Shown: in pieces, positions 22,701-61,920 of the stretch | How the letters are laid out: the number at the start of each line of letters is the position of its first letter | Position numbering within the stretch: position 1 is the first letter of the stretch | Origin: Symbiodinium natans | Taxonomy: Eukaryota; Sar; Dinophyceae; Suessiales; Symbiodiniaceae | Direction of reading: 5' to 3' | NCBI GenBank assembly: GCA_905221605.1 | Contig: CAJNDS010001779.1 | Coordinates: 301,146 to 365,145, forward strand | Length of the DNA: 64,000 nucleotides | Program-made: the position numbers and the translations under genes | The notes under the pieces: generated by a model | Told to the model about the DNA's origin: nothing | The model's database searches: none | Seen by the model: the letters and a program-made list of their open reading frames with translations, nothing else

Positions 22701-25700
22701 TTAGGGCGTGGGGTTTAGGGATTCCAGGATGGGAGGTTCCCCCTTTAGACGAGCAGCTCCTTAATAAGTATTGTAGTATCTGCTGATTGTAATCCCTTTT
22801 GAGGACTGTTAGCATAAGAGGGAACACCCCAACTTGCAGTGTTTGGCGCATTTGTTTTTCTTTTGGAGGGGTGGGGGGGGGTTAGGACTTACAGGTTCTT
22901 CGGGGAACTAAAGGGGTTTGGGCTCGGTTGTTGCGGGTCGTTGGGATGAGGGTTCTGAGGCTTTATTTTGGGCAGGACTCACAACCCTAGACCCTAAACC
23001 CTGCTAAGAGCACGCCAGGCAACGAGCTACGCTCTGAAACTCAAACCGTCAACCCCTGACCCCTGAACCCTCAACAGCAAAGCGACCTAAACCCTAAACC
23101 CTAAACCCTATTTCCTAAAACCCTAAACCCAAAAGTCTAAACCCTAAACCCTAAACCCTCAACCCCAAACCCTAACATATGTCGGAGCACCCGAAGCCCT
23201 CACATCCCAAAACTGTAAACCCTAAACCCGAAACCCTAGATCTTAAATGGGCCCTGTTGAGCACAACAACAGCAGAAACCTTGAAAACAGGGACAGCATT
23301 AGAACAGCCCCTACACGAAGCTGATCTACACATCGGGTTCCCCATCAACAGCGCCATAAACACCACAATGCCCTGTATACTCAAACCCCAAAAACCCTAA
23401 ACATCCTCACAATCCCCGATAAGTGGCCTGTCCCAACGTTAGGTTAAGGGTCCCAAAGCCCGAAAGCCAAGGAGCCACGTCAGCTTTGTAGCCCGGGGAA
23501 ACACCCGGCGCGAACTTCAAGGGTGAAGATGGGCCCTGGTCCACTAACCTTGAGCTTACTTGGGAGGTTCATGGGTGCTTATAACCCGAACTATAGGTCT
23601 ACTTGAATTCTACTTAGAGGACTTAGGCGACTGGGGCTGATAAGTGCAGAGTTGGGGTTATAAGTACCCTGAACCTCCAAGTATGGCCTTATCAAGGGGG
23701 TTTCGAGGGTGCCCAAGGCGGTATTCGAATTCGGTCATTAGTTGCGTGAGGGTTCTGAGGTTTTCCTCGGCTTCCTTTGGCCACCCTGCACCCAAGAGAC
23801 CTCAAGACATCCCCTGAGTGGCCAACATAAAAACCTCAAACCCTTGAAGGACAAAAAAACCACCCAGGGAGCCTACCATTCAGATCTTTGGGATCTTTTG
23901 GGGTTTAGGGTTTTGAGGTTTTAAAAGAGAACTGTCAACCCTGAACCCCCCAGAAGCCTTCAACCCTAAACCCTAAACCCTAAACCCTAAACCCTAGACC
24001 CTAGACCCTAGACCCTAGTAGCCCTAAACCCTAGTAGCCCTAAATCTTAAGAAAGGTTCCAGGAGCCTCTGCAGCGACTGGGCCACATCTTCAGCCTTCA
24101 CGATCTTTTCCTGGCCAAGACTGGCACATGGGTTGAGGCTTGGGGTTTGAGGCCTGGGGTTTGGGGTTTAGGGTTTCGGATTTTAGGGTTTGGGGTTTCG
24201 GGTTTAGGGTTTGGGGTTTAGGGTTTGACGGTTCTGGTTTAGGCGTTGGGGTTTGGGGTTTAGGGTCTAGGGTTTAGAGTTTAGGATTTAGGGTGCTGTT
24301 CGATTTATAGCTTTAGAGAGCACACATGGAGGTTCATCGGAGCGTTCTAAGTGGCGGCAAGAGTACCCCAAATAAGGTTATAACGACACTTTCCCTACTT
24401 ATGTCCCTACTTAGAAGTACCCATGAACCCCCAAGTAACCCCTAAACCCCAAACCCCAAACCCTAAACCCTAAACCCTAAACCCTAAACCCTAAACCCTA
24501 AACCCTAAACCCTAATCCCCAAACCCAGTAGAGTCATCCTACCTGCAACTCTCTGTCTGACTACCCATGAAGCCCTATGGGCTTCGGCGCTTCGGGCCTA
24601 ATCAGGGCTCCGGAGAGCCCTGCAGGCAAGACTCCCTAAACCCTAAACCCTAAACCCTAAACCCTAAACCCTAAACCCTAAACCCTAAACCCTAAACCCT
24701 AAACCCTAAACCCTAAACCCTAAACCAACAATCTACACCCAAAAACCGTAAACGCTAAACCCCGACCTTGTTGTTCTTTCGAACGTATGGGCCTCTGGCT
24801 GTGTGCCGCGCTCGTGCTCCGTGCGCTTCGCACCCTTCCCGCGCAGGAGGAACACCGCGGAGACATAGCGGTTCGTCTGCCTGTACCCTAAACCCTGAAC
24901 CCTGAACCCTGAACCCTAAACCCTGTCCTTCCAGGACCTAATAATTAGGTTACTTGAGCCCCCAAAGAACTTCAGAGTTCGGTCCCAGGATGGGGTAGAC
25001 TTCGGAGACTTGGTAGCCCGGGAACCATAAAACGTGGAGATACTTTGTGGTCCCTCAAGAAAATAGGTCCAACTTCAAAGGCGCTGCTGAAATAAGGTCC
25101 CAGTGTCAGGTGCGTGAGGGAGCAAAGGAGGCTCTTGGGGTGGAGCAGCTCACGGACTGTTTCGGCCACGGCACACGCGTGAGGGTGCCGGATGGGGGCC
25201 AGCGAGGCCACCTGGTATCGCAGCTTTGGCGTGGGTGCAAGGTGCACAGCCATTTCGGCCATGCTCAAGTGCAGTTGAGATGGGAATCTCACAGGGGCCG
25301 TGCACATGGAGATACACTGCGCGATTAACTTGTTCACGTTCTTGAGGTCAAGAGAAGAGACATCCTCTTTCGTCTCGCAAATGTCGTAAATGGCCTGGTT
25401 GTCCAGAATCAGAGACACATCTGTGGATTCTCCCAGGAAAAAACTTGCAAGAACGCAGTTGTATGGCTCCACCATGCTCGAGGGAAACATCGAAGGGTAC
25501 ACCACCTGAGATTGACAACTCTCTAACCCTCAACCCTAAACCCTAAATTCTAAGCTTTTCGAATTCCAAACTCTCAACCCCTAAAGTCCACAAAAACTTT
25601 CGGTTCCAGCTTGGGACCATGGATGATGATCGACAGTCTCTATGGGACCCAAAGATTGGGAAGCAACCGACACCCCCCCCCCCCCCCCCAAAAAAAAAAA

Positions 25701-27843
25701 AAGAAAAAACAACTAATAACCAAATAAACCCAAAACAAGCGAATGACGAAATCTGGGCCCTTGCCAAGCCTCATTAACTATGCCTCAAGCTCAAGGCACC
25801 CTCTTAAACTCCAAGAAGCCTGGAAGCACTCATTAACATACTCGTTTCTCACTCACCAACATACTCTGGTCTTGACCGTCCTGCACTTTCTAAGGCCCTA
25901 AACCCAAAACCCTAAACCCCCAAAATCCTAAACCCCTAAACCCCAAAACCCTAAACCTCCAAAGCAGCCCAAAACCCAAAACCCAAAACCCAAAACCCAA
26001 GACCCAAGACCCTAAACCCCAAGCCCTAAACCCTAAACCCTAAACCCTAAACCCTAAACCCTAAACCCTAAACCTCCAAGGTGGCCAGCACACGGGGTGG
26101 CAGATCACCTTCTTGTCGAAGGCATCACGAAGGCTCTGCAGGAGGTGGGTTCCGATCCCTGCGCCGGTACCTCCACCTTGCTTTAGGGTTTAGGGTTTAG
26201 GGTATAAGCCCCCTAAGTCCCCTAAGTCTTGGAGGTTCAGGGTGGTGGGGGCCCCTTGAAGGATTAGGGTTTAGGGCTCGGGTTTGGGGCTTAGGGTTGA
26301 GGGTTTAGTGCTTAGGGCAGTAAACGCGCCACAGGTGCCGAAGGCTTGGGTGACGATGAAGCCTTGCCTGAGCGATTGGGAATGGACGTCCAAGCTTAAC
26401 CCCCCCCCCTACCCCAAACGCCAAACGCCAAACGTCAAACCCCACACCCTAAACCCTGAACCCTAAACCCTAAACCCAAAACCCTAAGCCCTAAACCCTA
26501 AACCCTAACTTCAAGGAACAGCTTCTAGACTTTGGGCTCTGGATTCTCTCAGCCCCACAATGTCACAAGCCCTGACTTGAGTGTTGGGGCCTTGTAGCAT
26601 CTACCACCCCCCCCCCCCCCCACCCCCACAAAAAAAACAAAACCCTAAACCCTAAACCCTAAACCCTAAACCCTAAACTGAGGCCAAAAGAAACTCATGG
26701 GATTGTGGAGGGCAAAAAGCCGGGCAAAGGGAAGAAACAACCACAGGAGCAGCGGAGCCCAAAGGCTTTGTGGGCTTCCCGAGAACCGCGCTTAGCAACC
26801 ACGAGTAGGGAGGAGATCCCTGGATCCAAGATGAGTTGCGGGTAGGAGCACCGGTCCAACGCCAACCGTACCTGCGGCGGTTGCTCGAATGGTTTCAGGG
26901 CCTTGTTGTTGCGATGGTTTAAGCCTTGACACCTCCCTTTTAACCCGAAAAACCTTACAAAACGCCCAAGCCCTAAACGGGCACGCTTGGGGTGTAGGAC
27001 TGGTTCAGGGTTCTAAAGCCCATATCAATAGCCCGAAACCCGATAACCTTTGCCTGATCCAGGACGTCCTCGGTCACCTTCCCTTCCGTTGCCGCCTCCC
27101 TGCCGCAGAAGAAGTTGTTCTTGCAGTCATGCTTATACCTCGGTGGTTTCTGGGAAAAATGACACACGCCCTATCTTAGAGCCCAAAACCTTTCTTCTTG
27201 TCGCTTCTCGACGACTCCCCATCAAGGTGTTTGTAGCAAAAACCTACAAACATGTCTTGGGCTCTTGAGGTAAGCTTATATTGGGTTGAGGGCTCAGGGG
27301 TTCGGTTAGTGCAGGGTGTACGTAGTAGAGTAGCTTCAAGAGAAGATCCGCTCGCCCACGGATTATACTGGGGTTAACCGTTTAATTAGGGTTCAAGGTG
27401 TCGGGTTTAAGGTTAAAGGCATATGGGCTTCATATACAGGTACGTGGTGTTTCAGGGCTTTGGATCGTATCGGGGTGTAAGATTTTGGGTGTTAATCCTA
27501 AATTAACCCTAAACCCTAAACCCTAAACCCTATTGCTTGCAAAGTGCCCCAGAAGAGACTGCGGCAGGAAGAGTTGCGGATGCTGGGAGAGAAGCTCAGA
27601 GCGCGTTGTGGGGTCTGTGTCGACGAAGATCGCGCGGGGCTGGTGGAGGCCAGCAAAAGACTCGGAGAAGCACGTGTCAGGAGCTAAGTCGATTTCAGCT
27701 CCAGATGCTCTTTCTGCGTTGCGCGTGCCGTCCGGCAGAATACCGTGCTCTTGGCAAAGAAGGCGCCACGTCTCAGAGCCAATCTGGCAGCCAGCTTGGC
27801 CGACGTGGATGCTGATGCATTCGCCGCACGCTCGCGAGGACAT
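19674..27843 (-). CDS. Divergent alpha-tubulin-like gene in about 12 exons
   Basis: Exons by protein alignment and phase: 27541-27843, 27048-27131, 26339-26394, 26094-26176, 25114-25505, 24832-24880, 24060-24110, about 23465-23535, 23280-23310, 20990-21046, 20090-20234 and 19674-19786. The product is about 470 residues (alpha-tubulin about 450): N terminus ECISIHVGQAGCQIG, PRAIFVD, the nucleotide loop GGGTGAGIGT (A for the usual S), VEPYN, LDNQAIYDIC, then RYVSAVFLLRG, PGYKADV, GNTTAV, RRAYVW and a C-terminal tail. It lacks the -EEY end and is clearly diverged from conserved alpha-tubulin, so a specialised paralogue, presumably in microtubules. Donors are mostly GC (GCACCT three times, GCAAGC), plus GT and GA; acceptors are AG, usually AG|G. 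An in-frame TAG just before the ATG fixes the start. The exon 2/3 and 11/12 borders are unresolved. Confidence 0.85.
20090..20234 (-). CDS. Alpha-tubulin-like exon 11
   Basis: Starts G CAG CTT after GCGCAG, restoring phase. QLFFRRAYVWKFLEANGDMD then DFYEAKDAMEAQINHYEDRL align with [20 protein letters not shown] and FSEAREDMAALEKDYEEV, the two C-terminal helices. Confidence 0.82.
20609..20777. mobile_element. Family A MITE with internal telomere-type tract
   Basis: Complete ends (CTACTTGGAGGTTCATGGGT and CCTGAACCTCCAAGTA). Between ACAAGCCTACC and CTCATAACC lie four CCCTAAA/CCCTGAA units that the related copy at 23559 does not have. Located in an intron of the alpha-like tubulin. Confidence 0.85.
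20990..21046 (-). CDS. Alpha-tubulin-like exon 10
   Basis: MGNTTAVRELLVQQFQKFL aligns with [20 protein letters not shown]. Acceptor CGAG|G, GC donor GCACCTC at phase 2. A CCCTAAA tract lies to the left and a long TTTAGGG tract to the right. Confidence 0.75.
21258..21397. mobile_element. MITE family C (TIR TACAGGGTGGGGCCCCC), diverged copy
   Basis: Ends TATAGGGTGGGGCCCCCTAG and AAGGGGGCCCCACCCTGTAT, with internal blocks CTTATAAC and AGGGCCC. Inverted relative to the copies at 35408, 36145 and 60826, with more differences. Confidence 0.85.
21897..21995. mobile_element. MITE family A copy
   Basis: CTACTTGGAGGTTCATGGGT to AATGAACCTGCAAGTA, about 99 bases, in an intron of the alpha-like tubulin between telomere-type tracts. 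Confidence 0.85.
22200..22300 (-). CDS. Candidate small exon in tubulin intron region
   Basis: Minus frame VPMCRAADDALAQSPIFG then MMLLGLDSG. Good protein character, but no match to tubulin. Possibly an exon of a nested transcript or a lost insert. Confidence 0.3.
22727..22833. mobile_element. MITE family B copy
   Basis: GATGGGAGGTTCCCCCTTTA ... GAACACCCC with inner AGCTCCTTAATAAG and its complement. Confidence 0.75.
23280..23310 (-). CDS. Alpha-tubulin-like micro-exon 9
   Basis: 31 bases between TGTAG and GTTTCT, GAVLMLSLFSR, aligned with RAVCMLS. Phase fits the next exon (AG|G ATG GGT). The family segment VVPGGDLAKVQ before it was not found, so another micro-exon may be hidden. Confidence 0.5.
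23465..23535 (-). CDS. Alpha-tubulin-like exon 8
   Basis: GPSSPLKFAPGVSPGYKADV aligns with TIQFVDWCPTGFKVGI, the loop before the taxol-site region in tubulins. Acceptor ACCAG|G. The right (upstream) side abuts a family A MITE at 23559-23685. Donor position unclear. Confidence 0.65.
23559..23686. mobile_element. MITE family A copy beside tubulin exon 8
   Basis: TTGGGAGGTTCATGGGTG to CCTGAACCTCCAAGTA. Only about 25 bases separate its end from the exon 8 acceptor. Confidence 0.85.
24060..24110 (-). CDS. Alpha-tubulin-like exon 7
   Basis: 17 codons, EKIVKAEDVAQSLQRLL, aligned with VVPKDVNAAIATIK. Acceptor GGCCAG|G, apparent GA donor (GAACCT). Confidence 0.65.
24326..24437. mobile_element. MITE family A copy
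   Basis: ACATGGAGGTTCATCGGAGC to ACCCATGAACCCCCAAGT. Lies in the tubulin intron between exons 6 and 7, enclosed by a TTTAGGG tract and a CCCTAAA tract. Confidence 0.8.
24631..24727. repeat. CCCTAAA tract of about 13 units
   Basis: Perfect heptamers in C-strand orientation within the tubulin intron between exons 6 and 7. Confidence 0.95.
24832..24880 (-). CDS. Alpha-tubulin-like exon 6
   Basis: TNRYVSAVFLLRG aligns with HGKYMACCLLYRG. The acceptor is TACAG, and the TTTAGGG tract before it ends only four bases from that AG. Likely GC donor (GCGAAG). Confidence 0.7.
25114..25505 (-). CDS. Alpha-tubulin-like exon 5 (core)
   Basis: 131 codons starting VVYPSMFPSSMVEPYN after CTCAG. Contains LILDNQAIYDIC (cf. 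MVDNEAIYDIC), NVNKLIAQCISMCTAPVRF (cf. NLNRLISQIVSSITASLRF) and VASLAPI (cf. LATYAPV). Ends in CTC AC before a GC donor (GCACCTG). The frame stays open well into the intron, which would mislead a gene finder. Confidence 0.88.
26094..26176 (-). CDS. Alpha-tubulin-like exon 4 (GTP-binding glycine loop)
   Basis: 28 codons with the split first codon. GGGTGAGIGTHLLQSLRDAF then DKKVICHP. GGGTGxG is the tubulin signature, but its Ser is Ala here. Flanked on the left by a long CCCTAAA tract and on the right, six bases away, by TTTAGGG. Donor GTGTGC. Confidence 0.85.
26339..26394 (-). CDS. Alpha-tubulin-like exon 3
   Basis: LDVHSQSLRQGFIVTQAFG matches LADQCTGLQGFLVFHSFG. Ends in TTC G before the GC donor GCACCTG. 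The next exon supplies GT, restoring the Gly codon. The acceptor is uncertain because taking AAG at 26395 leaves one base out of phase. Confidence 0.65.
27048..27131 (-). CDS. Alpha-tubulin-like exon 2
   Basis: 28 codons. HDCKNNFFCGREAATEGKVT then EDVLDQAK, matching [20 protein letters not shown] with the same length. Acceptor TATAAG, likely donor GTTATC (an alternative GC donor lies two codons earlier). Confidence 0.7.
27541..27843 (-). CDS. Alpha-tubulin-like exon 1 (N terminus)
   Basis: 101 codons. MSSRACGECISIHVGQAGCQ aligns with MRECISIHVGQAGVQ of alpha-tubulin, with a five-residue N-terminal extension. It continues through LLCQEHGILPDG, CFSESFAGLHQPRAIFVD and QLFLPQSLLGHF. Ends at TTT before a GC donor (GCAAGC) followed at once by AATAGGGTTTAGGG. 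An in-frame TAG lies two codons before the ATG. Confidence 0.88.
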
Positions 27844-28322
27844 GCGCTACTGCGCAGCAGGTGCTCGGAAATGGGTGGGCTCGAGACAAACGCAACAAAC
27901 TCTGCTAAAGCGGACATGCTCCATGACCTCACCCTTGGGTCCCCCCGGCTTGAAGGTTCTTACGAGATGTGAACAGGGAGTTATAGGTAGCCCCATAAAC
28001 AAGAATAAGCCACTGAGAACAAACCACTCTTCACCGGGCAGGACCGGCGTGCTCCAGGTTTTGAAAATGCTGGCCTCTTGGGGCCGAACTCGTTCTCAGT
28101 AGGGAATTTGGGAATTGGGTTCCCGAAGCCCTAAACCCCAAACCCTAAACCCTAAACCCCAAACCCTAAACCCCAAACCCCAAACCCTAAACCCGATAGA
28201 ACCTCCTGGTAATGGGATTTAGAGTGGGGCGGGGGGCTTGAGCGATGCCTGCTTCCCATCCTTCTGGACGGAAGTCAACCCTAAAATTAGGGTCATACCC
28301 TACACAATTAGGAAGCCCTATT

Positions 28323-28437
28323 CAGCTAGGTAGCCCAAGGGACCAGTTTTTAGTGAGGGCACCCTTTTCGGGTTGGCTACTTTATAAGGGAACCCATTAC
28401 CCAAAAAAGGGTAAAGGGTACCACTGGGCTACCAAGT
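28323..28437. mobile_element. MITE family D (TIR GGTAGCCCAGTGGTACC)
   Basis: AGGTAGCCCAAGGGACC ... GGGTACCACTGGGCTACC with the conserved inner ATAAGGGAACCCATTACCCA. Related copies at 14598, 19870, 29826, 32695, 48138, 53308 and 60345. Confidence 0.85.
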
Positions 28438-28539
28438 CAGGTAATATGTAATATGAAACCCCAAACCCTAACCTTTTTAGGGTTCATTTGGTCCCCAAGG
28501 GATACAAAAGAACTCGCCAGTTGAGAACAAGGCTGCACC

Positions 28540-28690
28540 ATGAAAAATTGGGTCCACCTGCTTCCCAAGACCCCGAAACATGAGATCCCAGATGACCTAG
28601 GGCCACAACACAGAAAACGCAGCTTTAAGCGTCTTCGGTACACAAATCCCATCGGAGCTCTAAACCCTACGTCAACGCCAAAGCACTTGG
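28540..28690. CDS. Candidate coding piece, strand unresolved
   Basis: The plus frame (LLPKTPKHEIPDDLGPQHRK) and minus frames are both open for over 50 codons. Located upstream of the tubulin ATG. Not recognised. Confidence 0.25.
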
Positions 28691-29349
28691 GCAATGGAGC
28701 TGCACAGGCTAGGGTAGACTAGTTTTTGGGGTTTAGGTTTAGGAACTTTAAGGCAACGCACAACGCACAACTCAAATGCACATGCGCACGCACATGCACG
28801 CACATGCATGCATAAATCCCCCCCTCTCTTCTTCACCTCCCTCGAAGGAACAGCTGAAGTGAACACAAGCATGCAACCCAAAACCCAAAACCCAAAACCC
28901 CAAACCCCAAACCCTAAACCCTAAACCTTGCACCCTAAACCCTAAAACGCCTGAGTCATGGTTCACATCACGGGAGAATGACCAACGCCTCTGAGGCACA
29001 TCTGAAAAAACTTCTCGAGCTCGTAGAACACAAGAAAATACCCACTTTGGGTTATAAAGTCTACAACATAAATGCCTATAGCCAACCCAAACAAATAACA
29101 CCTGTGACAAAATCCTAGTAGATACTACGAGTTAACCCTAAATATCGGCTTTTTGGGCGCGTCTTGCTGGTGCTTTGGTCGCGGCGCCAGGCGCCAATGG
29201 TGGAGTCTTAAACCCAACCCAAACAACTCTCAAGCCCTTTAAGGCCCTCAAACCTTGAAACCCTGTAAACCCCTATATACCAGCATAACTTAGCTTCAGA
29301 GCCCTTGGGCAGTCGATCTTCGACGCCCAGAGAAAGTTGTCAGAAAGAG

Positions 29350-29822
29350 TCATGCAAAGAAGGCAAGGCATAGGGTGAACACGCCGGGCAAGACGAGGGA
29401 GACAGGTGTAGCGAACGCTGCTGCCACCTGGGGGTCTGTCGTCCCCTGCACGCTGTAGACGTTGACCCCCCAAGTTGGGTCTGCGTTGGTGTCGCCCACA
29501 CTGCAGCAACCACAGTTGTTGTCACCTCTTGATCCATCTGGTTTGAAGCCGTTGGCGTGCTGAAAGAAAGAATAGCCTTGGTCGTGGCACGTTTGAGCAC
29601 ATTCACTGATGGATCGAGCCCCCAACCAATCCGTATTGCACCAGCAAAGCTCGCAGACTGAGTTGTAGTCCACTCTTCCTGGCACTATTGCTCGAAAGAC
29701 CTTGATTCCCCATCCGGAATCGCCGGCTGTCCACGAGAGGGAGGTGCAACAGGCGCAGTTGTTATCGCCCGAAGACCCGTCGCTTTTTGTACCGCTGGCA
29801 TGTTGGAAGACAGTACTTTTCC
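29350..29822 (-). CDS. Exon 3: Cys-rich repeats and C-terminal anchor signal
   Basis: Begins within a few bases of the MITE end (CACTGGGCTACTAAG). Ends with TGA at 29350-29352 after a 20-residue hydrophobic run. Repeats are spaced about 80 residues apart. Each has the signature DNNCxCC. Confidence 0.8.
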
Positions 29823-30480
29823 TTAGTAGCCCAGTGACTACCAAAAAAAGAGAAGAAGGGCATCTTTTTTTGGGGTTGGCAATTATAAGGGAACCCATAA
29901 CCCACCTAAACCCTAAACCCTAAACCCTAAACCCTAAACCCTAAACCCTAAGCCCTAAGCCCTAAACCCCTAAACCCTAAACCTCCCAAGAAAAAAAAAG
30001 GGTAAAAGGGCACCACTGGAGCTACGAAGTTTCAAGGCGCAGGCATCCCGACAGCTCTCTACCGACTGGAAGCCCAGCCATTCCACCGTGGGACACTCGC
30101 AGGTGCTGCAGATCCTATCATGGCTACACTCAGAAGGGTAGCTAAAAATTAAAATCTTAGCTGCCTTATTAAGAAACCCAATTAACCCAAAAAGGCTAAG
30201 GATCTAAAGTTGCAGTAAAGTACCACAAAGCTATTTTCTCCCCTTAGAACCTTCATAAACAATATTGCAGATCCTATATTCTCCCCTTAGAACCTTAGTA
30301 AACAATATTACTTCTTAATACCCTCTTGGGTTTTATATAAACAAAGATACAAGATAGTTCCCAAGGGGGATAGAGTATCTCTTCCACCTCAAACAACATA
30401 GTGGTGGTTGTGGTCGTGGGGCCGTCGGCCCGCGCCAGGCCGAAGAAGAACATGAGCAAAGCCATTACGTGGCTCTGCAT
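29350..30480 (-). CDS. Secreted, probably GPI-anchored tandem Cys-rich protein, 3 exons
   Basis: Exon 1 (30380-30480) has an N-terminal signal peptide (MQSHVMALLMFFFGLARADG) then a Thr run. Exon 2 (about 30030-30114) encodes ICSTCECPTVEWLGFQSVES and CRDACALK. Exon 3 (29350-about 29822) completes repeat 1 (FQHASGTKSDGSSGDNNCAC...WGIKVFRA) and holds all of repeat 2 (CELCWCNTDWLGARS...CHDQGYSFFQHANGFK...NCGCC...WGVNVYSV). The C terminus is hydrophobic (FATPVSLVLPGVFTLCLAFF) directly before TGA, typical of a GPI-attachment signal. The two repeats align throughout, proving the exon 2/3 join. Intron 1 holds repeat family E and a palindromic element. Intron 2 is a family D MITE itself split by a CCCTAAA tract. 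Intron 1 best fits a GA donor (GATACT) with AG|G. The fold resembles PAN/Apple or a similar surface module; function unknown. Confidence 0.75.
29826..30022. mobile_element. Family D MITE forming an intron, split by a telomere-type tract
   Basis: Ends GTAGCCCAGTGACTAC and CACCACTGGAGCTAC are the family TIRs. Compared with the copy at 28323, the sequence breaks after AACCCATAACCCA, where 29903-29988 is a CCCTAAA tract, and resumes with AAAAAAGGGTAAAAGG. The element fills the intron between exons 2 and 3 of the Cys-rich gene almost exactly. Confidence 0.85.
30030..30114 (-). CDS. Exon 2: first half of Cys-rich repeat 1
   Basis: Starts after GATAG with G ATC TGC. ICSTCECPTVEWLG aligns with VCELCWCNTDWLG of repeat 2, and CRDAC with CAQTC. 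The left edge meets the MITE end GTAGCTCCAGTGG. Confidence 0.75.
30121..30230 (+). mobile_element. Repeat family E, 110-bp copy with flanking duplication
   Basis: TGGCTACACTCAGAAGGGTA to TACCACAAAG, nearly identical to the copy at 49691-49800. GCAGATCCTAT occurs both just left (30109-30119) and at 30267-30277, and CTAT plus about 30 bases (TTCTCCCCTTAGAACCTT...) occur twice after it. It lies antisense in intron 1 of the Cys-rich gene, six bases from the exon 2 acceptor. Confidence 0.85.
30380..30480 (-). CDS. Exon 1: signal peptide
   Basis: MQSHVMALLMFFFGLARADG followed by six Thr and MLFEVEE. ATG at 30480, with AAACCTCAT on the plus strand, that is, just downstream of a CCCTAAACC tract in sense direction. 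Confidence 0.75.
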
Positions 30481-30501
30481 GAGGTTTAGGGTTTAGGGTT
30501 T

Positions 30502-30586
30502 ACCTGGACCCCCAAAGTATGTAAAAAAAACAGCCCAAGACCCTTAAAAGGGCTATTATTTTACATATTTTGGGGGTTGAGGTAGG
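30502..30586. mobile_element. MITE family J, second copy
   Basis: Practically identical to 15838-15922, inserted between TTTAGGG units (GGTTTACC...GGTAGGG). Confidence 0.9.
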
Positions 30587-31289
30587 GTTTAGGGCTTAGG
30601 GTTGGTAATCTCTAAGACCCATAAACCCTCAACCCCACGTCACCCCAATGATGATGGACACCACCGGACAAGCCGTCAGACGTTATGTGCAACACCTCAA
30701 GGCCTTGATGCCTGTCGTCTTCTTCGGATCAACCGTAATCAGAATGATACTCCTAAACCCTGAACCCTGAACCCTAAACCCTAAACCTCTTGCAAAGAAG
30801 TCCTGGCTTGAACCTTCCAGGCACTGCGTGTGCATCCGACACAAACCTTGCCACGCGTAGCAGGATCCTCACCAAATGAAACTGGAACCTACTATTTTCT
30901 GTAGAACCCCAAGAAACTAAAAACACAAAACTCCCCTTATAAGGAAGAATCTTTTGTGTTGCTTTGGAGGGGTTCTTAAAGTCTTTCTGCAAATAGAAGG
31001 AACAGGCAGGGCCCCATACCTGCAGTGGAAAGAAGTGACAGTTTTTTCAAGCTGGGAAGGCAGCTCGGAGACATGCTGGTCGCGAGCGCTGCATGATCCA
31101 ACTAGGGTTTAGGGTTTAGGGTTTAGGGTTTAGGGTTTAGGGTTTAGGGTTTGGGGTTTGGGGTTTGGGGTTTGGGGTTTGGGGTTTGGGTTTGGGGTTT
31201 GGGGTTTATGGTTTAGGGTTTAGGGTTTAGGGTTTCGGGTTTAGGGGTGCGTCGGGCTTACAGGGCTTAACCCCTGCACCCTACGCCAC

Positions 31290-31375
31290 CGCCCTCTAAC
31301 GCGACTTTCTGGGTACAGGAGAGCAGTACCGGGGGTTGCTATCGAAGTTGAGTCCCTCGTGTTGACCCTAAACCC
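31290..31375 (-). CDS. Candidate exon
   Basis: Minus frame GQHEGLNFDSNPRYCSPVPR then KSR and TAG. The spacing EGLxFDxxxxxC recalls the PAN-type exons upstream. Weak on its own. Confidence 0.35.
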
Positions 31376-33067: not shown

Positions 33068-33074
33068 ACTGGGC

Positions 33075-33470: not shown

Positions 33471-33472
33471 GA

Positions 33473-53307: not shown

Positions 53308-53405
53308 CAGTAGCCATATCATAATAAGGGCACCCCTTTTGGGGTTGGCTACTGTCGAAGGGAACCCATACGCAAAAAAAGGGCAAAGGGCCACCACCGG
53401 GCTAC
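53308..53405. mobile_element. MITE family D copy
   Basis: GGTAGCCCAGTAGCCATATC to GGCCACCACCGGGCTACTA. Confidence 0.85.
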
Positions 53406-53474
53406 TAAGCCTAGACCCTATACCCTAAACCCTGAACCCTAAACCCTAAACCCTTTAAACCCTAAACCCTAAGA

Positions 53475-53546
53475 CCCAGGGGCGGATGGCGTCTGCGATG
53501 GTGTCCTGTAGGAAGCTCGTGTCCAAGGAGACGGCGATCTGGTCCT
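53475..53546 (-). CDS. Exon of the beta-rich gene
   Basis: Acceptor GCTAG|GAC, frame DQIAVSLDTSFLQDTIADAI then RPWV. Confidence 0.6.
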
Positions 53547-54079
53547 AGCGGATAATTTGGTGATGGATTCCCCTACCCCCCCCTTGAATGACCTTATAAG
53601 TAAGCTTAAGTATCCCTAAATAGCCTCTTTTGGTGGGGGGAACATAGGGGGGGGGTAGTATAGAGGGGGGCCAGTAGGGGAACCCATGATTTGAAGGCAA
53701 ACCTGAGTTCTGTGGGCTCTATCGGGTGTAGGGTTTGCACTCTCAAAAACCGAAACCCTATAAGCCCTATAAACCCTATATATATATGTACATACCTAAA
53801 CCCTATCACGCCAGAAACTCTATCAACCCTATATAAACACCAAAAACCCGAAAAGCCGATAACACAAACACAAAAAAAAAGGCTACCCGACCTCTCAAGT
53901 CTATTCCAGACCTTGGGGACCAAATGAACCCTCACATTGGGGTCTTATAACCTACACTGCTGTAATTCCTAATCTTGTACATGAACCATGCTCCCCCTAA
54001 ACCCTGGGCTCTAAACCCCAAGCCCTAAACCTTAAACTCTGACGCCTAAACCTAAACCCTAAACCCTAAACCCTAAACC

Positions 54080-54125
<46 letters not shown>

Positions 54126-54197
54126 ACCCTAAACCCTAAACCCTAAACCCTAAACCCTAAACCCTTTTAGGGTTCCTGTGTGGTCCCCACTTGGGAT

Positions 54198-54292
54198 CAC
54201 TCCGAGGGGCCGGGATGCCCAAAGCGGAGAGGCCGGCCGTGGCGATCAGGTTGAGGCCGACTGCGACGCAGGCGTCCACCTCAGGGGGCAGG
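54198..54292 (-). CDS. Exon of the beta-rich gene
   Basis: Minus frame LPPEVDACVAVGLNLIATAG then LSALGIPAPR. CCCTAAA tract left, long TTTAGGG tract right. Confidence 0.62.
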
Positions 54293-54479
54293 TTAGGGTT
54301 TAGGGTTTAGGGTTTAGGGTTTAGGGCTTAGGGCTTAGGGTTTAGGGTTTAGGGCTTAGAGGGTACAGGGTTTAGGGTTTAGGGCTTAGGGCTTAGGGTT
54401 TAGGGTTTAGGGTTTAGGGGTTTGAGGGTTGAGGTGTCTAGGCCAAGCAAAGCCACGAAACTAAGGTGATGCCAAGCTA

Positions 54480-54597
54480 CAGTGTCAGCACTGCGCGTGC
54501 TGTTCGTGACCAGGGAGATTCCAGATTCAAGCCCGCCACCGGTCTGGATCAGGCTTCCCGATGCAGTGGTCGTCTTGTACGAGATCGTTCCTTTCTC
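54480..54597 (-). CDS. Exon of the beta-rich gene
   Basis: Minus frame KGTISYKTTTASGSLIQTGG then GLESGISLVTNSTRSADT. Gly/Ser/Thr-rich alternating pattern of an extracellular beta structure. Confidence 0.6.
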
Positions 54598-54784
54598 AGA
54601 CTAAGCCCTGCTGCTTCGGTTTAGGGCTTGGGGTTTATGGCTTCGGGCTTGGGGTTTGGGGTTTTGGTTTTCGGGATTATCAGGCCCCCTTCAGAACAAA
54701 ACAGAACACCAATGGTAGTAAGGATTGAAGGGGGGTCTCAGGGCCCATATCCTCCCCCAAAACAGAAGGGCCGTAAAGCCCTAA

Positions 54785-54860
54785 TATTAGGGCCCATACG
54801 CCCCTCCCCCCCCCCCTACCCCCCCCCCCCCCCCCCCCCCCACCACCTTACCCCCCCCCC
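54785..54860. repeat. Poly-C runs
   Basis: C runs of up to about 24 bases with single A or T interruptions. Confidence 0.95.
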
Positions 54861-54884
54861 CCACACGGCCTTCGTAAGCCTTAC

Positions 54885-54987
54885 AACCCCTCAGATATGT
54901 TCGGACACAGATTCCAGCGGCGCGAATCTCGACGCTCACTTGGGGCTTTATGGTCACCGGCACACCAGGTATCAGCCAAATCACCAC
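54885..54987 (-). CDS. Exon of the beta-rich gene
   Basis: Acceptor TGCGCAG|G. VVIWLIPGVPVTIKPQVSVE then IRAAGICVRTYLR. IPGVPVTIKPQVSVEI is the clearest beta-strand pattern in the gene. Confidence 0.66.
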
Positions 54988-55381
54988 CTGCGCAGAGTAG
55001 ACAGCCGAACGAACGCCCGAAGCCTAAACCCTACCAGCAAGGGCGTTGATACCCCATAACCCCTTAGCAAGGCCGTTTATAGGGTTGATTATGGGGATTA
55101 GAATTAGGCTTAAAAGCCCCATCCTGGTAACACCCCAAACCCTTGAAACGCCTAATCCGTCAACTACGGTTTAGGGTCTCGGGACCCTGGAGTAAGAAGT
55201 CGATGCGTGTGTTGCTTGCTTTTTGCAGGGCCCGGGCCGCTGACCGTGAGGCGATCGTCATATATAGATAGTCTAGCATGCTTCTTCTTTGCCCATGCCC
55301 CCTTACGGAAACCTTCTGCAGCCTTGACCTGAAATTACGGGCAGGGAGGGCGCCTGCAAACAAACCCTGAACCCTAAACCC

Positions 55382-55526
55382 TGTACTTGGAGGTCCAGGA
55401 TACTTCTGACCCCCAATTCGAACTGTACCTATACGCCCCCAAAAACACCCCGCAGTCCTCTAAGTAGGTTAGAAGTAGACTTATGATTGGGGTTGTAAGT
55501 ACCCATGAACCTTCAAGTAGGGTTCA
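55382..55526. mobile_element. MITE family A copy
   Basis: GTACTTGGAGGTCCAGGATA to ACCCATGAACCTTCAAGTAG. Confidence 0.85.
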
Positions 55527-55682
55527 GGGTTTGGGGGTTTAGTGTTTGGGATTTGGGGTTTAGGGGTTTAAGGGTTTTAGGGTCCCTAAACCCTAAACCA
55601 TAAACCCTAAACCCTAAAACCTAAACCCTAAACCCTAACCCCTAAACCCTAACCCATGAACCTCTACGTACATTACCCACCT

Positions 55683-55742
55683 CAGGACCCAATCCGAAGC
55701 GGACGATGGCATCCGCGGACAAGGCGACGTCGACGCCCGCCT
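55683..55742 (-). CDS. Exon of the beta-rich gene
   Basis: Acceptor GCAAG|G, GT donor (GTGGGT) after GAG. AGVDVALSADAIVRFGLGPE. Both splice sites are clear. CCCTAAA left, TTTAGGG right. Confidence 0.68.
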
Positions 55743-56304
55743 TGCTCGGGGGTTTAGGGTTTAGGGTTTAGGGTTTAGGGTTTAGGGTTTAGGGTTTAGG
55801 GCCAGCAATGGGTTTTGGGCTTTCCCAACACGAAAACCGAAGCTAAGCAAGACTCCTTGAACCATAAATCAGGGTCCTACTACTATGACAACTATGATGT
55901 ACGGGGGGACATTCCTTACTTGAAGGTTTTTGGAAGTTATTGGATGATTCCATTGGTCCAGGGCAAAGCAAAGCTGCGGATGCAAGAAGCAACTACCCCT
56001 AAGCCCTTCTGAAATCATGGTCGCCCTTATTCAGCCCCATGCCACCACAACACAAATGTTCAAGAAACCCTCCGCCCTTATAAGCCCTATAAGCCTGTTA
56101 ACATGAAACCCTCAGCCCCCCAAATCTTCAGGACTCTTGTTGCATGCCCGATAAGCTCCCCTCTGAGATCCGGTCCCTCCGGGTGAAATCCGCTCCCTTT
56201 GCTGTGCCGGTCACCTGCCAAAGGATCACAGTCCTGCTGGGCTTCGGGCTTGAAAATACCTTTAGTGTAACATCTTTCCAGTCCGGTGAGGAGGCCGTAC
56301 TAGG

Positions 56305-56412
56305 CGGTTCATGGGTACTTATGAGAAGGGTTATAAGTCCATAAATACCAGTTTGACCATAGTTTCCCTACCTCTAACCTTACATAGAAGTACCCAAATG
56401 AACTTGCAAGTA
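56305..56412. mobile_element. MITE family A copy
   Basis: GGCGGTTCATGGGTACTTAT to CCAAATGAACTTGCAAGTA. Confidence 0.75.
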
Positions 56413-56616
56413 TCGGAATCAGTTCATCACTTAAAAGGCTCGGAATTAGCATGGACAAAGTATCACTGCGGCGGGGATAGCATTCGTGATATCGGGGCAA
56501 GGGATATAAACTGTTGCTATAGATCGCCCTAAACCCTAAACCCTAAACCCTAAACCCTAAACCCTAAACCCTAAACCCTAAACCCCAATCCCCCCAATTC
56601 CCCCCAATCTGGATGG

Positions 56617-56690
56617 CCCGGGTTTATCCCCACCTTTCCGGTCTGCGGGTCGACCTTGAAGCTTGCGCCGCTCGTTAAATCTGCCTGGCA
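56617..56690 (-). CDS. Exon of the beta-rich gene
   Basis: Minus frame QADLTSGASFKVDPQTGKVG then INPG. CCCTAAA left, TTTAGGG right. Confidence 0.6.
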
Positions 56691-57659
56691 ACTTAGCTGC
56701 AGGGCTCAGTGTTGCGGGTTTAGGCTCTGGGCTTTATAGGGTTTAGGGTTTAGGGTTTAGGGTTTAGGGTTTAGGATTTTGGGTTGAGTGCAGATTTGGG
56801 AGAGGGGTGGGTTGAGGGGCGGGCCGGGGGGGGTGGGGGGGAAGGATTCTGGTTGCAGTTGCGGGTTTTACGTAGATGTGTACGATACACTGTGTATACA
56901 ATGTGCCTGGCATCTGTGCATGTCGGTTGGCTATGCTCTAACAAATCTGTGCGTATTCATGCCTCTTTGAAGCCGCGTGCTATCAAAGTCTCTGGCCACT
57001 ACAAATACGACTTGTTCGCGCCGCGGTCAAGGTCATTCCAGGAACTTAATGGCTAGGTTGAAAGCCAGGTTGTAAACAGGATAGCTGGGTACTCACGACC
57101 CTACTTCTAACCTACTACTGCTAAGTTCCCTCCGCCTGTAAGGTACTTGGAACACGCTGAACGTGTCCTTAAGCTTGGCTCTGACCAGTAGCCAGCCATG
57201 AACATGTGCGAATGGTTTTTGATGCTCGTACTTGTCACATGCTTCAGCTGGCAAGGCTCTTTCGTTTGTGCCGTGTGCCGTTAAATTGCTAACCTGCGCC
57301 GATGCCGCCCGACGCTCGACAAACCCCAATGGCACGGCTGATTTGCCTCACGCTACCCTAAAGCCTAAAGCCTAAAGCCTAAAGCCCAAAGCCCAAAGTC
57401 CAAAGCCCAAACCCCAACCTACATCCTAAGCCCAGAACACCCTCCCCCCCCGCCCCATTTGGGGGGAGGGCGGGGGGGGTTCAGGCTTCAGGTAGGGTTC
57501 CACTCTAAACCCTAAACCCTAAACCCTAAGCCCGAAACCCGAAACCCTAACCCTAACCCGCCATAGAGGCAGCGTGGCAAACACTAAACACAAGGAGGTG
57601 CGATTTAGGGTTTAGGGTTTAGGGTTTAGGGTTTAGGGTTTAGGGTTTAGGGACAGGAT

Positions 57660-57765
57660 CTGGAGCCGAGACTACCTCTCCTAAGTTTCCTGAATCCTGC
57701 TTTTGCCTCCCTTGACTCCTTCAGTGTACTCCACGGATCGGCGACCCACGGAACAGGAGCTAGAC
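57660..57765 (-). CDS. Candidate exon
   Basis: Minus frame SSCSVGRRSVEYTEGVKGGK then SRIQET and TAG. Might belong to the beta-rich gene. Confidence 0.35.
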
Positions 57766-58075
57766 CCAAAAAACCCTGAAACCCGAAACCCAAACCCTGA
57801 CAATGGGATACAAATGTGTTTTGGTTTAGGATGGAAACTGGAACGTCTCTAAATGTCGCAATCTTTGTGGTCCCTTGTGATCAGTGCCCTAGAGACCCCA
57901 GACACCCTAGAGACCCTTTTGACCCTAGAGACCCTTTTGACCCTGTATTTAGTTCGACCTTATAGACCCTAAACCCTAAACCCTAACTAAACCCTAAACC
58001 CTAAACCCTAAACCCTAGACCCTAGACCCTAAACCCTAAACCCTAAACCCTATAGACCCTAAACCCCAAACCCTG

Positions 58076-58152
58076 CGGGCCTCGAGCTTGGTGGCAACCG
58101 CCCCAGTAAGGGAACCAAAGGCATCCGCCTCTGCAAGGCCCTGGACCATCAC
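58076..58152 (-). CDS. Exon of the beta-rich gene
   Basis: Acceptor GCCCAAG|G, frame VMVQGLAEADAFGSLTGAVA then TKLEAR before GCAGGG (possible GC donor). Several CCCTAAA tracts on both sides. Confidence 0.6.
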
Positions 58153-58426
58153 CTTGGGCACCCTAAACCCTAAACCCTAAACCCTCAACCCTAAACCCTG
58201 AACCCTGAACCCTAAACCCGAAGCTCGTAGGGCTTGCAGGGTTTATGCGGGTTTATGCGGCTCAGGCAGGGCTCGTCCGATGCTCTCTGCAGGCGGTAGG
58301 ACCCTGAAACGCGATGCACCCCGAGAGTATTAAACAGCCCTGAACCCTAAACCCTCAAGAACCAGGCTGGGCTCTGAAACTCCTGCACGGGGAAAGCTGG
58401 GAGGGGTGGTTGGGTTGGGGGGGGGG

Positions 58427-58427
<1 letters not shown>

Positions 58428-58466
<39 letters not shown>
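58428..58466. repeat. (TC)n microsatellite
   Basis: About 19 TC units after a G10 run. Confidence 0.97.
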
Positions 58467-58467
<1 letters not shown>

Positions 58468-58479
58468 ACAAAAACTGCA

Positions 58480-59010
58480 GAGAGCAGATGTCTCGAAAGC
58501 GTTGCCAGTGTGGGATGTGAAAGTAACATGATGTAAGAGCCCATCAGCACGTATGCAAGTATGCATCACCGCCATCATCACCATCATCACCATCCACTCC
58601 TCGCGCTTTTCGGCACGATTCTCAGGCATGCAAAGTACAGTTTTGTTTGTTCCGAAACGCTTCGTGTGCAGGACTAACAGCATGTTCTGTTGCGCCACTT
58701 CTTCTGTCGGTCCTTTCACGAAATCCCTTTGGAACCTTCTTGTGCTCCCACATTCCGGCACCTTCTGTTAAGAAGCGCTTCAATCGGCGTGCAGAGACAA
58801 GGCAAACTCGTACTACCTGGTCGCCGAATCGAGCGCGCACGGCGCGAGCACATTCCCTTACAATCGCCCCCCCCCCCCTACTTTCCGCGAGTGCCATGCC
58901 CGTTGCGAGATTTGCTGCGGGCACAGCACATAGCTCCGCTGTCATACGCTTAAGCCCTACAGTTGGTTGTGGTCGCAAGCATCAAACAATGTATAGCAAG
59001 AGCCCACAAA
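58480..59010. other. Longest stretch without telomere-type tracts, strand unresolved
   Basis: Over 500 bases with open frames on both strands: minus AEKREEWMVMMVMMAVMHTC and ALAESRGGGAIVRECARAVR, plus TARAHSLTIAPPPLLSASAM. None is recognised. It could hold longer exons or an internal promoter region. Confidence 0.35.
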
Positions 59011-59388
59011 AAACGTAGGTTTCGGGCTCGCAAGGTAAACTAAACCCTTAGACCCTAAACCGAAACCCCCTGAACCCTAAACCCTAAACCCCAAAACCCA
59101 ACTCTTAAGGTAAACTAAGCCCTAAACCCTAAACCCTAAACCCTTAAACCCTAAACCCGATAGTTCACACTGCGAAAGAATAAAGCCACAGGCACTATGA
59201 GGCAGCCGTAGGTTCCACAAACCTTGGCTTGCTGAAGGGTTTAGGGTTTAGGGTTTAAGGTTTAGGGGTTTAGGGCTTTAGGGCTTAGGTCTCAGGCTCC
59301 TACCCGTGAGTTTGAGGCGAGTGGACAGCAGAGTCGTGCAACCCCCCGCACTATTCCCTCAGAACTGCCAAGACATGGTTCGTTGATT

Positions 59389-59620
59389 ACGAACCCCCAA
59401 ACCTGCTTTTTATCAGGGGTTTATACTAATTAAGAACCTGCAAAAGAGTAGGTTTTGGGCTCTTAAGGAGCCAAGGCATGGTTCGATGAGTCTCAGCCCA
59501 TCAAAGCTTTAAGAACTCCCAGAGCCTGCCTTTTGTTCAGGGTTTAGGGTTTAGGGTTTAGGGTTTAGGGCTTTATACGAAGAACCCTGCCAAAGAGTAG
59601 GTTTTGGGCTCTTAAGGAGC
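59389..59620. mobile_element. Two adjacent copies of MITE family G, one with a telomere-type tract
   Basis: Copy 1 (59389-59478) reads ...CTGCTTTTTATCAGGGGTTT-ATACTAATTAAGAACC... and ends GGTTTTGGGCTCTTAAGGAG. Copy 2 (59508-59620) has the same left half and right end, but at the GGGTTTAT position it carries five TTTAGGG units (59538-59571). Confidence 0.85.
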
Positions 59621-59956
59621 AGTCCAAGTAGCTGTCTTCGTGTAGGGCTTCTCCGGAAAGCGTCGCGCAGCCGTGAAAGAGCAAGCGCCCTTGCCTGGGA
59701 AAAGACTCTAAAAGTGTGAGGAAACGACCCAGACCCTAATCCCCAAACCCTCCTTGGAGGTTCATGAGGGTACTTATAAGTAGATTTCAAATACCCTGAG
59801 TTAACCATAGTTACCCTGCCTAGAACAATACGGTTCTATCCATAGTACACTCACTTCTAACCTGCTTATAAGTATACCCTAAACCCTAAACCCTAAACCC
59901 TAAACCCTAAACCCTAAAACCAAAACCTACACCCTAAACCCTAAACCCTAAACCCT

Positions 59957-60018
59957 AGTAAGTCCTGGCGGCCACTTTGAGGTCTGCGGTCAAGTTGTTG
60001 CGGGAGGTTGACTTCAAG
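59957..60018 (-). CDS. Exon of the beta-rich gene
   Basis: Minus frame LKSTSRNNLTADLKVAARTY. CCCTAAA tract left, TTTAGGG unit right. Confidence 0.5.
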
Positions 60019-60728
60019 GGTTTAGGGTTGCTTGCAGAAGGTCAGAAGGCAGCGTGAAGGGCAAGAAGCACTTTCACATGGTTTAATCAATCCCCCCCCC
60101 CCCCCCCCCCCCCCAAACCCTAAACCCCAAACCCTAAACCCTAAAGCCTAAAGCCTAAACCCTATACCCTACACCCCAGTACCCATAAACTGCTTAGATT
60201 CTAGAGGAGCACCATAGGAGCCCCAATAAAGATCCAGGGCACCTTCCAGTAGCGCCTCTAACACCAGGCGTGTTGACCTTGCTTGTTCACTATAGGGTCC
60301 TTATACGTTTAGGGTCTAGGGTTTAGGGTTTAGGGTTTAGGGCTACCAGTACCCATATGGCAATAAGGGCACCCTGTTTTTGGCTAGTTACTTTATAATG
60401 GGAACCCAGAACGCTAAAGAAGAGTAAAGGGTACCACTGGGCTACCAAGTATAAGTAGGGTTGAGGGTTTAGGATTTAGGAAGAAGTAGGGTACGTATGG
60501 TTGTGATCTCATTCAGGGTGCCGATAGCCCCACTTACAAGTAAGCGTGAACCTCCAAGCACGATCAAAAGGATCAAGACAAGAAGGCTGTCTGGGATTTA
60601 TCAGTGCGACCCCCCTAAGCCGGAAACCCTAAACCCTAAACCCTAAACCCTAAACCCTAAACCCCAAACCCTAAACCCTAAACCCAATGGCCAAGTTTGG
60701 GATCTTGGAATACCAAACAGACAGTCAA

Positions 60729-60808
60729 CTGCAAAAACTTCGAGAGTGCAATGCAAGCTTCACGCTCACATCCACCGTGGTCTCTCCAGAAAGAAGGTCC
60801 ACGTTGCC
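60729..60808 (-). CDS. Exon of the beta-rich gene, beside a MITE
   Basis: Acceptor AACCAG|G, frame NVDLLSGETTVDVSVKLALH then SRSFC. The family C MITE ends 17 bases upstream of the acceptor. Confidence 0.6.
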
Positions 60809-60825
60809 TGGTTTCAGTTATCTAC

Positions 60826-60949
60826 TACAGGGTGGGGCCCCCTTACTATACTAACTGTAGTTAAGGGACTTATAACCTAACTTAGGGTCCTTATAACCCA
60901 ATTTAGGGCCCTTATAACTCTACTTATAACTAGGGGGCCCAACCCTGTA
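60826..60949. mobile_element. MITE family C, youngest-looking copy
   Basis: TACAGGGTGGGGCCCCCTTA to TAGGGGGCCCAACCCTGTA. TATCTAC or TCTAC on both sides may be the target duplication. A family F element follows directly at 60950. Confidence 0.93.
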
Positions 60950-61056
60950 TCTACTACTTGCTTAAGAACCCCGAGCAAATAAACATATTCTTCCTTACTA
61001 AGGGTAATATAGGGATCATTATGGTTTTTCTTTTGGGGTTCTTAAGCAAATGGTAG
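60950..61056. mobile_element. MITE family F copy
   Basis: TCTACTACTTGCTTAAGAAC to GGGGTTCTTAAGCAAATGGT, core TTACTAAGGGTAATATAGGG. Confidence 0.9.
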
Positions 61057-61837
61057 TTATAGGCTTCTTTAGGGACGGGGGGGTTCAAGGGGGGTAGGTA
61101 CCTAGGGAACCATAGGGAAGCTTGGGGAGCCTTAGGGAGTATTAGGGAACCTTGGGTTACACCCCCGCCCTTGTGACCCTAAACCCTAAACCATAAACCC
61201 TAAACCCTAAACCCTAAACCCTAAACCCTAAACCCTGCACCCTACACCCTAAACCAATCAGAGCCTACCATGCCGAAACCCGGAGAGTAAGACATGACAT
61301 AGACACAATGAGCCATGCAAAAGCTCGACGCGAAGATCCAAACCTTACAGCCCAGCTTGTGAAGAAAGAGCAGTTTAGGGTTTAGGGTTTAGGGTTTAGG
61401 GTTTAGGGTTTAGGGTTTAGGGTTTACTTGCAAAATCTACAAGTGAAGCCTTTCCTGCTATGTACGAGAGGTGCTGCTCGACAGGCCCCCATCTCAAAGC
61501 AAATATAGGACCCTCAAGCAGTAGGCCCCCCTTACATAAAGAGGACCCCAATAACATACCCCGAATATCCTAACCCCCCCCCTCCCCCCCGCCCCCACCC
61601 TACATCTTCTCACGTAGAACTCGTGGGCACGCAAAGCCAGGCCCCTGAACCCAACCCCCATCCGATATCCGATATTGCTTAGTCAGACCATGGGCATGCA
61701 ATGTGTGCTTCATGTTTGGTTCAGTAGGGTTTAGGGTTTAGGGTTTAGGGTTTAGGGTTTAGGGTTTAGGGTTTAGGGTTTAGGGTTAGGGCCTAGGCGC
61801 ACTTAAGTAGAATCCCTTCAAATGAGGATGTGGGGGC

Positions 61838-61920
61838 ATGGGGCCGGGGAGGTGGGCCTTCGACGATGATGCTCGCAATGCCGATCTCTCCATTCAATGC
61901 CAGCCCGGTGCGACCCTCAC
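61838..61920 (-). CDS. Most upstream readable exon of the beta-rich gene
   Basis: Minus frame EGRTGLALNGEIGIASIIVE then GPPPR. Alternating hydrophobics as in the other exons of the series. Confidence 0.5.

Follow-up and report, generated by a model that had tools for sequence, protein, structure and literature searches.

In a 64,000-nucleotide stretch of the Symbiodinium natans genome (contig CAJNDS010001779.1, positions 301,146 to 365,145; the window), we found that telomere-type tracts tend to face each other across short exons, so that the forward strand reads CCCTAAA, exon, TTTAGGG. The arrangement is a tendency, being perfect only in a selected list of segments and in one gene, and an orientation bias at exon-sized spacing exists genome-wide. 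We tentatively attribute it, with a probability of roughly 0.42, to tract orientation being set site by site next to exons, the two strands of the repeat differing in the splicing information that they would carry. The window contains 191 tracts (192 under a slightly different tract rule), of which 108 are CCCTAAA (C tracts) and 83 TTTAGGG (G tracts). Such tracts are dispersed in very large number over the genome: in an assembly of 759,417,921 bases, a three-unit 21-mer was matched 2.37 million times with both strands summed (1,184,385 and 1,185,204 per strand), compared with 33 and 41 matches for the same pattern read backwards. In the genes studied, they often lie within 60 nucleotides (nt) of an exon. 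A TTTAGGG repeat together with a large genome is what is expected of a dinoflagellate, the repeat not being exclusive to this group.

All recognised genes of the window are on the minus strand; a G tract to the right of an exon thus reads CCCTAAA in the sense of transcription, upstream of the acceptor, and a C tract to the left reads TTTAGGG, downstream of the donor. Gene A (20079 to 27843) is a divergent alpha-tubulin-like gene, gene D (1060 to 16187, running on leftward past the window) is a divergent beta-tubulin-like gene, and gene B (37054 to 56684) is a cysteine-rich gene with a repeated domain that holds 11 of 14 segments listed as tract-capped exons in an earlier, sequence-only reading of this DNA. 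A tract was counted if it lay within 60 nt of an exon edge. By this measure all 14 listed segments do lie between a left-hand C tract and a right-hand G tract, giving sense CCCTAAA on 14/14 acceptor sides and sense TTTAGGG on 14/14 donor sides; exon 26094-26176, for example, is flanked by a G tract at 26182 to 26203 upstream of its acceptor and by a C tract at 25896 to 26074 downstream of its donor. As exons, four of the 14 are backed by sequence comparison (26094-26176 and 20990-21046 as alpha-tubulin-like, 37732-37794 and 37396-37447 through a domain that recurs in their gene). Internal similarity is weak for 44600-44680 (E 0.05), and the remaining ones, apart from 24060-24110 (below), are called from open frames with AG/G...G[TCA] sites, the slash marking the splice junction.

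Extending the count to all 46 exons, we observed sense CCCTAAA on 23 of 29 tract-flanked acceptor sides and sense TTTAGGG on 25 of 27 donor sides. The 32 exons outside the list, 25 of them from the two tubulin genes, gave 9/15 and 11/13, so that together 20 of 28 tract-flanked edges fit. For the 32 exons backed by sequence comparison, the corresponding values were 12/18 (P = 0.047) and 13/15 (P = 0.012), together 25 of 33 edges; the fit was 30/38 when this set was widened by 24060-24110, 44600-44666, 39072-39173 and 47266-47522, and 22/30 when, instead, two weak gene D exons (d23 and d24) were removed from it. By gene, the 18 exons of gene B, which were found partly via the earlier list and may favour the rule, conformed at 14/14 acceptors and 14/14 donors (4/4 and 3/3 for its five best-supported exons), and the 27 best-supported tubulin exons at 8/14 and 10/12. 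Exon boundaries are uncertain by roughly 20 nt. Proximity itself was marked and was seen in each gene (P of 0.004 or less): 62% of 80 exon edges had a tract within 60 nt, whereas 2000 circular shifts averaged 21% and never exceeded 38%. The orientation bias was greatest next to the exons. In a 28-exon set, donors had 17 G and 1 C sense tracts and acceptors 16 C and 2 G within 60 nt, compared with 4 G and 3 C at donors and 4 G and 1 C at acceptors between 60 and 250 nt.

The rule can also be examined with no exon call, as it predicts that tract pairs at exon-sized spacing come in C-then-G order. At gaps of 95-145 base pairs (bp), the window contained 29 such pairs, compared with 16.0 ± 3.1 expected with labels shuffled. 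The excess was concentrated at 30-58 kb (18 vs 7.9), with 8 vs 6.6 at 1-30 kb (P = 0.32) and 13 vs 10.3 in 1-36.9 plus 57-64 kb (P = 0.19). A further 200 kb, sampled as 20 stretches of 10 kb (14,976 bases masked; nine stretches on the window's own contig), gave 48 C-then-G pairs at these gaps vs 28.2 ± 4.2 expected, a value matched in 0 of 1500 shuffles, and the other arrangements were G-then-C 20 (28.0 expected), G-then-G 13 (25.9) and C-then-C 28 (26.9). The reverse order, G then C, was in excess at gaps of 251-500 bp (24 vs 13.8, P = 0.0013). Because the tract rule merges same-strand pairs less than 60 bp apart, the shortest gap bin is not comparable with same-strand pairs. Over the whole genome, the pattern CCCTAAACCCTAAA-N{85,115}-TTTAGGGTTTAGGG gave 107,320 matches vs 41,057 for TTTAGGGTTTAGGG-N{85,115}-CCCTAAACCCTAAA, long tracts being counted repeatedly in both arrangements. 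Exact-pattern scans found no match in a set of viral contigs in either arrangement, nor, for the C-to-G arrangement, in a set of genome contigs. Pieces of the 20 stretches bounded by C and G tracts had higher coding scores than other pieces of the same size (P = 0.003) and a higher content of guanine plus cytosine (0.585 vs 0.536-0.550, P = 0.0001), as expected if many of them are exons.

Two properties of the introns lead us to a site-by-site setting of orientation. In introns with tracts at both ends, the G..C order occurred in 13 of 17, the margins predicting 13.2 (Fisher P = 1), which indicates that the two ends are independent, and introns with a tract on one side only still kept the rule in 11 of 14. 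As the bias is, in addition, strongest near the exon, these results point to a local effect and favour strand-specific splicing signals over an obligatory hairpin. Branch points can resemble CTAAAC, and G triplets can aid donors. Upstream of an acceptor, sense CCCTAAA is C-rich and, having no G, provides neither an AG nor a donor, while its CTAAAC resembles a branch point; sense TTTAGGG in the same place would present TTTAG/G, a decoy acceptor, once per 7-nt unit. On the donor side, the G triplets of sense TTTAGGG downstream could strengthen weak GC or GA sites. Wrong-way tracts would then be lost more often, leaving the C-exon-G arrangement. We infer selection through splicing as the cause, as well as the roles of CTAAAC and GGG.

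Several observations weigh against the rule itself or against this reading of it. The list of segments had been chosen for fitting the rule, and among the 28 comparison-backed exons outside it 8/14 acceptors and 9/11 donors conformed, together 17 of 25 edges (P = 0.054). A splicing filter acting on all genes should act equally on them, so the weak acceptor bias of the tubulin genes (8/14 in the strict set) counts against it; gene B fits at 28/28 edges, with exons partly derived from the list, vs 20/28 in the tubulins (P = 0.004). The donor bias exceeds the acceptor bias, and the C strand would do no obvious harm at a donor. Tracts more than 250 nt from both intron ends were still 13 G to 4 C in the donor half (9 C to 8 G in the acceptor half). 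Six acceptors (E6, E7, d11, d16, d17 and d19) have sense TTTAGGG, the would-be decoy, 4-52 nt upstream, E4 and d7 are followed by wrong-way tracts, and E4 is also preceded by one at 78 nt. Exon 26339-26367 is embedded in the opposite order, G-exon-C (26264 to 26508, tracts at 30 and 78 nt), and the tracts at the two ends of the interval 25506-26093 point the same way, which the sequence-only reading had stated. Codon-model scans were without discrimination: 20 minus-strand calls of a retrained model outside the curated list gave 0/1 acceptors and 3/5 donors, and its 21 plus-strand calls, not purged of curated exons, gave 9/11 and 6/6. Since reversed-sequence controls outscored real strands in the codon-model exon finder, its calls were left out of the counts.

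The earlier proposal was that the introns form hairpins, in which sense TTTAGGG on the donor side pairs with sense CCCTAAA on the acceptor side and draws the splice sites close to each other. Both arms were confirmed within 60 nt in the introns from 56617 to 55742, 45612 to 44680, 44600 to 44331 and 37732 to 37447; the intron from 24832 to 24110 is also two-armed, but its donor tract is 76 nt away. The proposed intron from 23280 to 21046 was left out, no exon having been recognised near 23280. Both arms were present in the right order in 13 of the 38 intervals between successive listed exons, some of which may span an unrecognised exon, and in reversed order in none. The complementary arms give strong predicted folds, and flipping one arm in silico changed the predicted energy from −127.9 to −22.8 kcal/mol in intron b10-b11 (44332 to 44599, minus strand, 268 nt, with a 124-nt G arm and a 75-nt C arm), from −129.2 to −45.8 in b18-b19 (37448 to 37731, minus strand, 284 nt, with GAAA common to the intron start and the next exon start), from −132.4 to −64.1 in b19-b20 (37149 to 37396, minus strand, 248 nt, with sense TTTAGGG 27 nt from the donor and sense CCCTAAA 15 nt from the acceptor) and from −545.3 to −468.7 in the 1245-nt intron b12-b13, a cost of 68-105 kcal/mol in the three short introns and 77 in the long one. 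This weakening, however, is a trivial consequence of complementarity. One-sided introns with a complementary tract inside kept the rule in 7/7 cases vs 4/7 without one (P = 0.19), as pairing would have it, and a similar proposal exists for the inverted-repeat introns of Amoebophrya (PMC7789003; this and the other papers cited here by PubMed Central (PMC) number are represented by excerpts). On the other hand, the statistical independence of the two ends argues against obligatory pairing, arm lengths within an intron are uncorrelated (rho 0.16, P = 0.60, 13 introns), and the donor tract is the right way round in three one-sided introns that have no partner tract (E1-E2, E10-E11 and b3-b4). We regard the hairpin as a rather unlikely source of the rule. 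A broader reading that takes in both mechanisms, in which facing telomere tracts would have been co-opted genome-wide as a generic, sequence-independent marker that defines short exons, by intron pairing or by strand presentation, and so offsets weak GC/GA sites, is possible although doubtful.

Healed breaks offer a different origin: telomerase would have capped breaks within introns and the capped ends would have been rejoined, leaving exons between outward-growing repeats. Whichever way a gene is transcribed, such a history predicts exactly the C-exon-G order and G..C introns. In addition, short introns like b10-b11 are almost arm-spacer-arm, and the window has one direct head-to-head junction, at 55583/55584. 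Yet the direct TTTAGGG-CCCTAAA array typical of an interstitial telomere fusion was not in excess in the 200 kb (6 G-then-C vs 6 C-then-G pairs at gaps below 20 bp; 14 vs 11 below 60 bp), which speaks against break-and-rejoin in its simplest form, and hundreds of bp separate the arms in many introns. Compared with strand signals and hairpins, it is the least supported mechanism and quite improbable. It is also improbable that the tracts arrived as terminal parts of introners, intron-making transposons with telomere-like inverted repeats. In line with such an arrival, several element families of the window have inverted-repeat ends, short direct repeats occur at intron ends (below), and one intron, F11, is itself likely to be an introner. 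But F11 has no telomere tract, the arms of the two-armed gene B introns lie as much as 59 nt in from the splice sites, the sequence separating the two varies between introns as judged by eye, and a direct repeat is present in only 1/7 gene D introns. Moreover, a tract-masked self-comparison of the window (92 matching pairs, of which 26 are inverted; by-eye sorting gave about 11 families) revealed shared internal intron stretches of about 26-130 bp and no whole-intron pair, hence no introner family with telomere-tract ends within the window. A transcription-coupled strand bias was rejected because tract orientation flips at each exon.

The likely introner is an inverted-repeat element at 39174 to 39271 (minus strand) with ends CTTAGTAGCTGAG/CTCAGCAACTCAG and GAAA at both ends. 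The frame of gene B stays open across the proposed junction, exon b16 behind this intron call being recognised by an open frame and weak similarity, and a second copy at 61930-62038 has AGGA at both ends. The element thus combines inverted-repeat ends, a target-site duplication, coincidence with a predicted intron and more than one copy. An 80-bp inverted-repeat element occurs at 15840-15919 and 30503-30582 in copies that are 100% identical, flanked by TA and situated inside telomere tracts of opposite orientation, indicating that tracts also serve as insertion targets.

The sequence-only reading had also described weak, non-canonical splice sites, and this was borne out in part. Donors were GC or GA in 15 of 21 introns (11 GC, 4 GA, 6 GT), and 21/21 introns ended in AG/G, but the aligner permitted only G[TCA] donors and its scoring rewarded AG/G, so that both counts are partly built in. 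When donors were unrestricted and the AG/G preference was off, 11/23 donors were G[TCA] and 13/23 exons started with G. CTAAA or CTAAC was present 7-50 nt before the AG at 14/18 acceptors of gene B, 2/9 of gene A and 4/13 of gene D. In 9/21 introns, the opening 3-5 nt of the following exon recur at the start of the intron (3.14 expected on re-pairing, P = 0.0008), with 8/14 in genes A and B. These direct repeats fit intron gain by insertion, which has been reported for dinoflagellates (PMC7789003, PMC11453091, PMC10666404). A table in PMC10666404 gives, for 5 of 7 dinoflagellates, 43.6-58% GC donors, 17.4-23.8% GA donors and 79.7-97.1% AGG acceptors; the values are 25.0, 0.1 and 93.2% for Amphidinium gibbosum and under 0.1, 0 and 56.5% for Amoebophrya ceratii. 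Taken together, splice sites, the likely introner intron and the size of the genome suggest a dinoflagellate. In candidate exons 52876-52950 and 53466-53544, the tract itself may form the donor (AGG/GTTTAGG or AAAG/GTTTAGG), judged by eye from reading-frame phase.

Gene A was recognised by spliced alignments and by similarity of its joined exons to alpha tubulin (phmmer 2.8e-56). Its minus-strand exons are 27548-27843, 27054-27138, 26840-26871, 26339-26367, 26094-26176, 25114-25505, 24839-24880, 24060-24110 (weak), 20990-21046 and 20079-20234. Nine of these 10 were picked in at least one spliced alignment; 24060-24110 was picked in none and comes from the codon-model exon finder only, its tubulin resemblance being judged by eye. 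Gene D, absent from the earlier account, was identified in the same way (joined exons, phmmer 6.5e-40). We used 13 of its exons inside the window, chosen without regard to tracts, and, in the neighbouring stretch L002, a further 5, of which d23 and d24 appeared only under a lower intron penalty. The alpha-like and beta-like genes, both strongly divergent, adjoin in the same direction (20079-27843 and about 1060-16187) and may represent a non-standard tubulin pair. A candidate 12-nt exon (EHKL) lies at 15163-15174 in the beta-tubulin-like gene, and its flanking introns would carry the direct repeats GAG and GATC.

Gene B was delineated by open frames, splice sites and internal similarity. Five of its 18 exons are backed by internal similarity (E 4.2e-6 to 5.7e-4), 47266-47522 resembles 34537-34763 (E 0.001), two are weakly backed (E 0.05 and 0.2) and 10 are called from open frame plus splice sites; its pieces matched no Pfam family. 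One copy of its domain forms an uninterrupted exon at 39266-39518 and another, at 37054-37794, is split by two telomere-armed introns, so that the two copies appear from their sequences to form a natural pair with and without introns. Simple repeats occur in two gene B intervals: (GCA)n, about 116 units, between exons b8 and b9 (46071-46417), and (TAG)n, about 40 units, between b9 and b10 (45167-45286).

No tRNA or Rfam match was found. With stops masked, no Pfam family scored above its cut-off in the minus frames of 2-20000, 28000-37999 and 57001-64000, in two plus frames of 1-15000, or in stretches L012 (minus) and L013 (plus); the minus strand of L013 gave a single match (E 0.00026), below its own cut-off. 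Tract density is patchy, with 0-5 tracts in five of the 10-kb stretches (L007, L008, L009, L014 and L015) and 13-32 in the other 15. Elsewhere in the genome (G000 C1019:16657-35637), many protein-kinase matches fall in long stop-free open frames, several in tandem, in contrast to the short exons of the window.

For dinoflagellates, hairpin models and intron-end inverted repeats have already been published (PMC7789003). The hairpin introner elements of Amoebophrya A25/A120 (Farhat et al. 2021, PMC7789003) have inverted repeats between the two intron ends that are predicted to draw exon boundaries close to each other, together with direct repeats of 3-5 nt and non-canonical splice sites. Their inverted repeats, however, are 8-20 nt and come in families, whereas here long telomere-tract arms are found in unrelated introns, and complementary sequence at both ends occurs in those 13 of 38 intervals with the arms inside rather than at the ends. 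Introner introns of Prorocentrum cordatum and other dinoflagellates (PMC10666404; introner-bearing introns in dinoflagellates are also reported by Roy et al. 2023, as cited in PMC11453091) likewise have simple inverted repeats at both intron ends, GT/GC/GA donors and AGG acceptors, but telomere repeats go unmentioned in the excerpt of PMC10666404 ('telomer', 0 occurrences). Plant telo boxes (Gaspin et al. 2010, PMC3022908) are telomere-type motifs placed non-randomly relative to genes; unlike the long tracts around internal exons seen here, they are short motifs in 5' flanks and 5' untranslated regions that act with promoter elements. In Eimeria tenella (PMC9131526), CTAAACC and CAG repeats are enriched in a large part of the genome, with no exon-facing orientation described in the excerpt, whereas the present case is a 759-Mb genome with GC/GA donors, two features that argue against Eimeria as the source of this DNA. 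Searches of the open-licence PMC literature gave no prior report of an orientation rule for telomere tracts flanking exons. This rule is the new element; its genome-wide statistic is firm and its proposed mechanism tentative.

The 2.6-fold genome-wide orientation bias is a strong, countable signal that could separate models of intron evolution, even if it is without function. If splicing reads the strand of the telomere repeat, telomerase-made sequence would acquire a second code at the RNA level, and weak-donor introns would gain a simple route of recognition.

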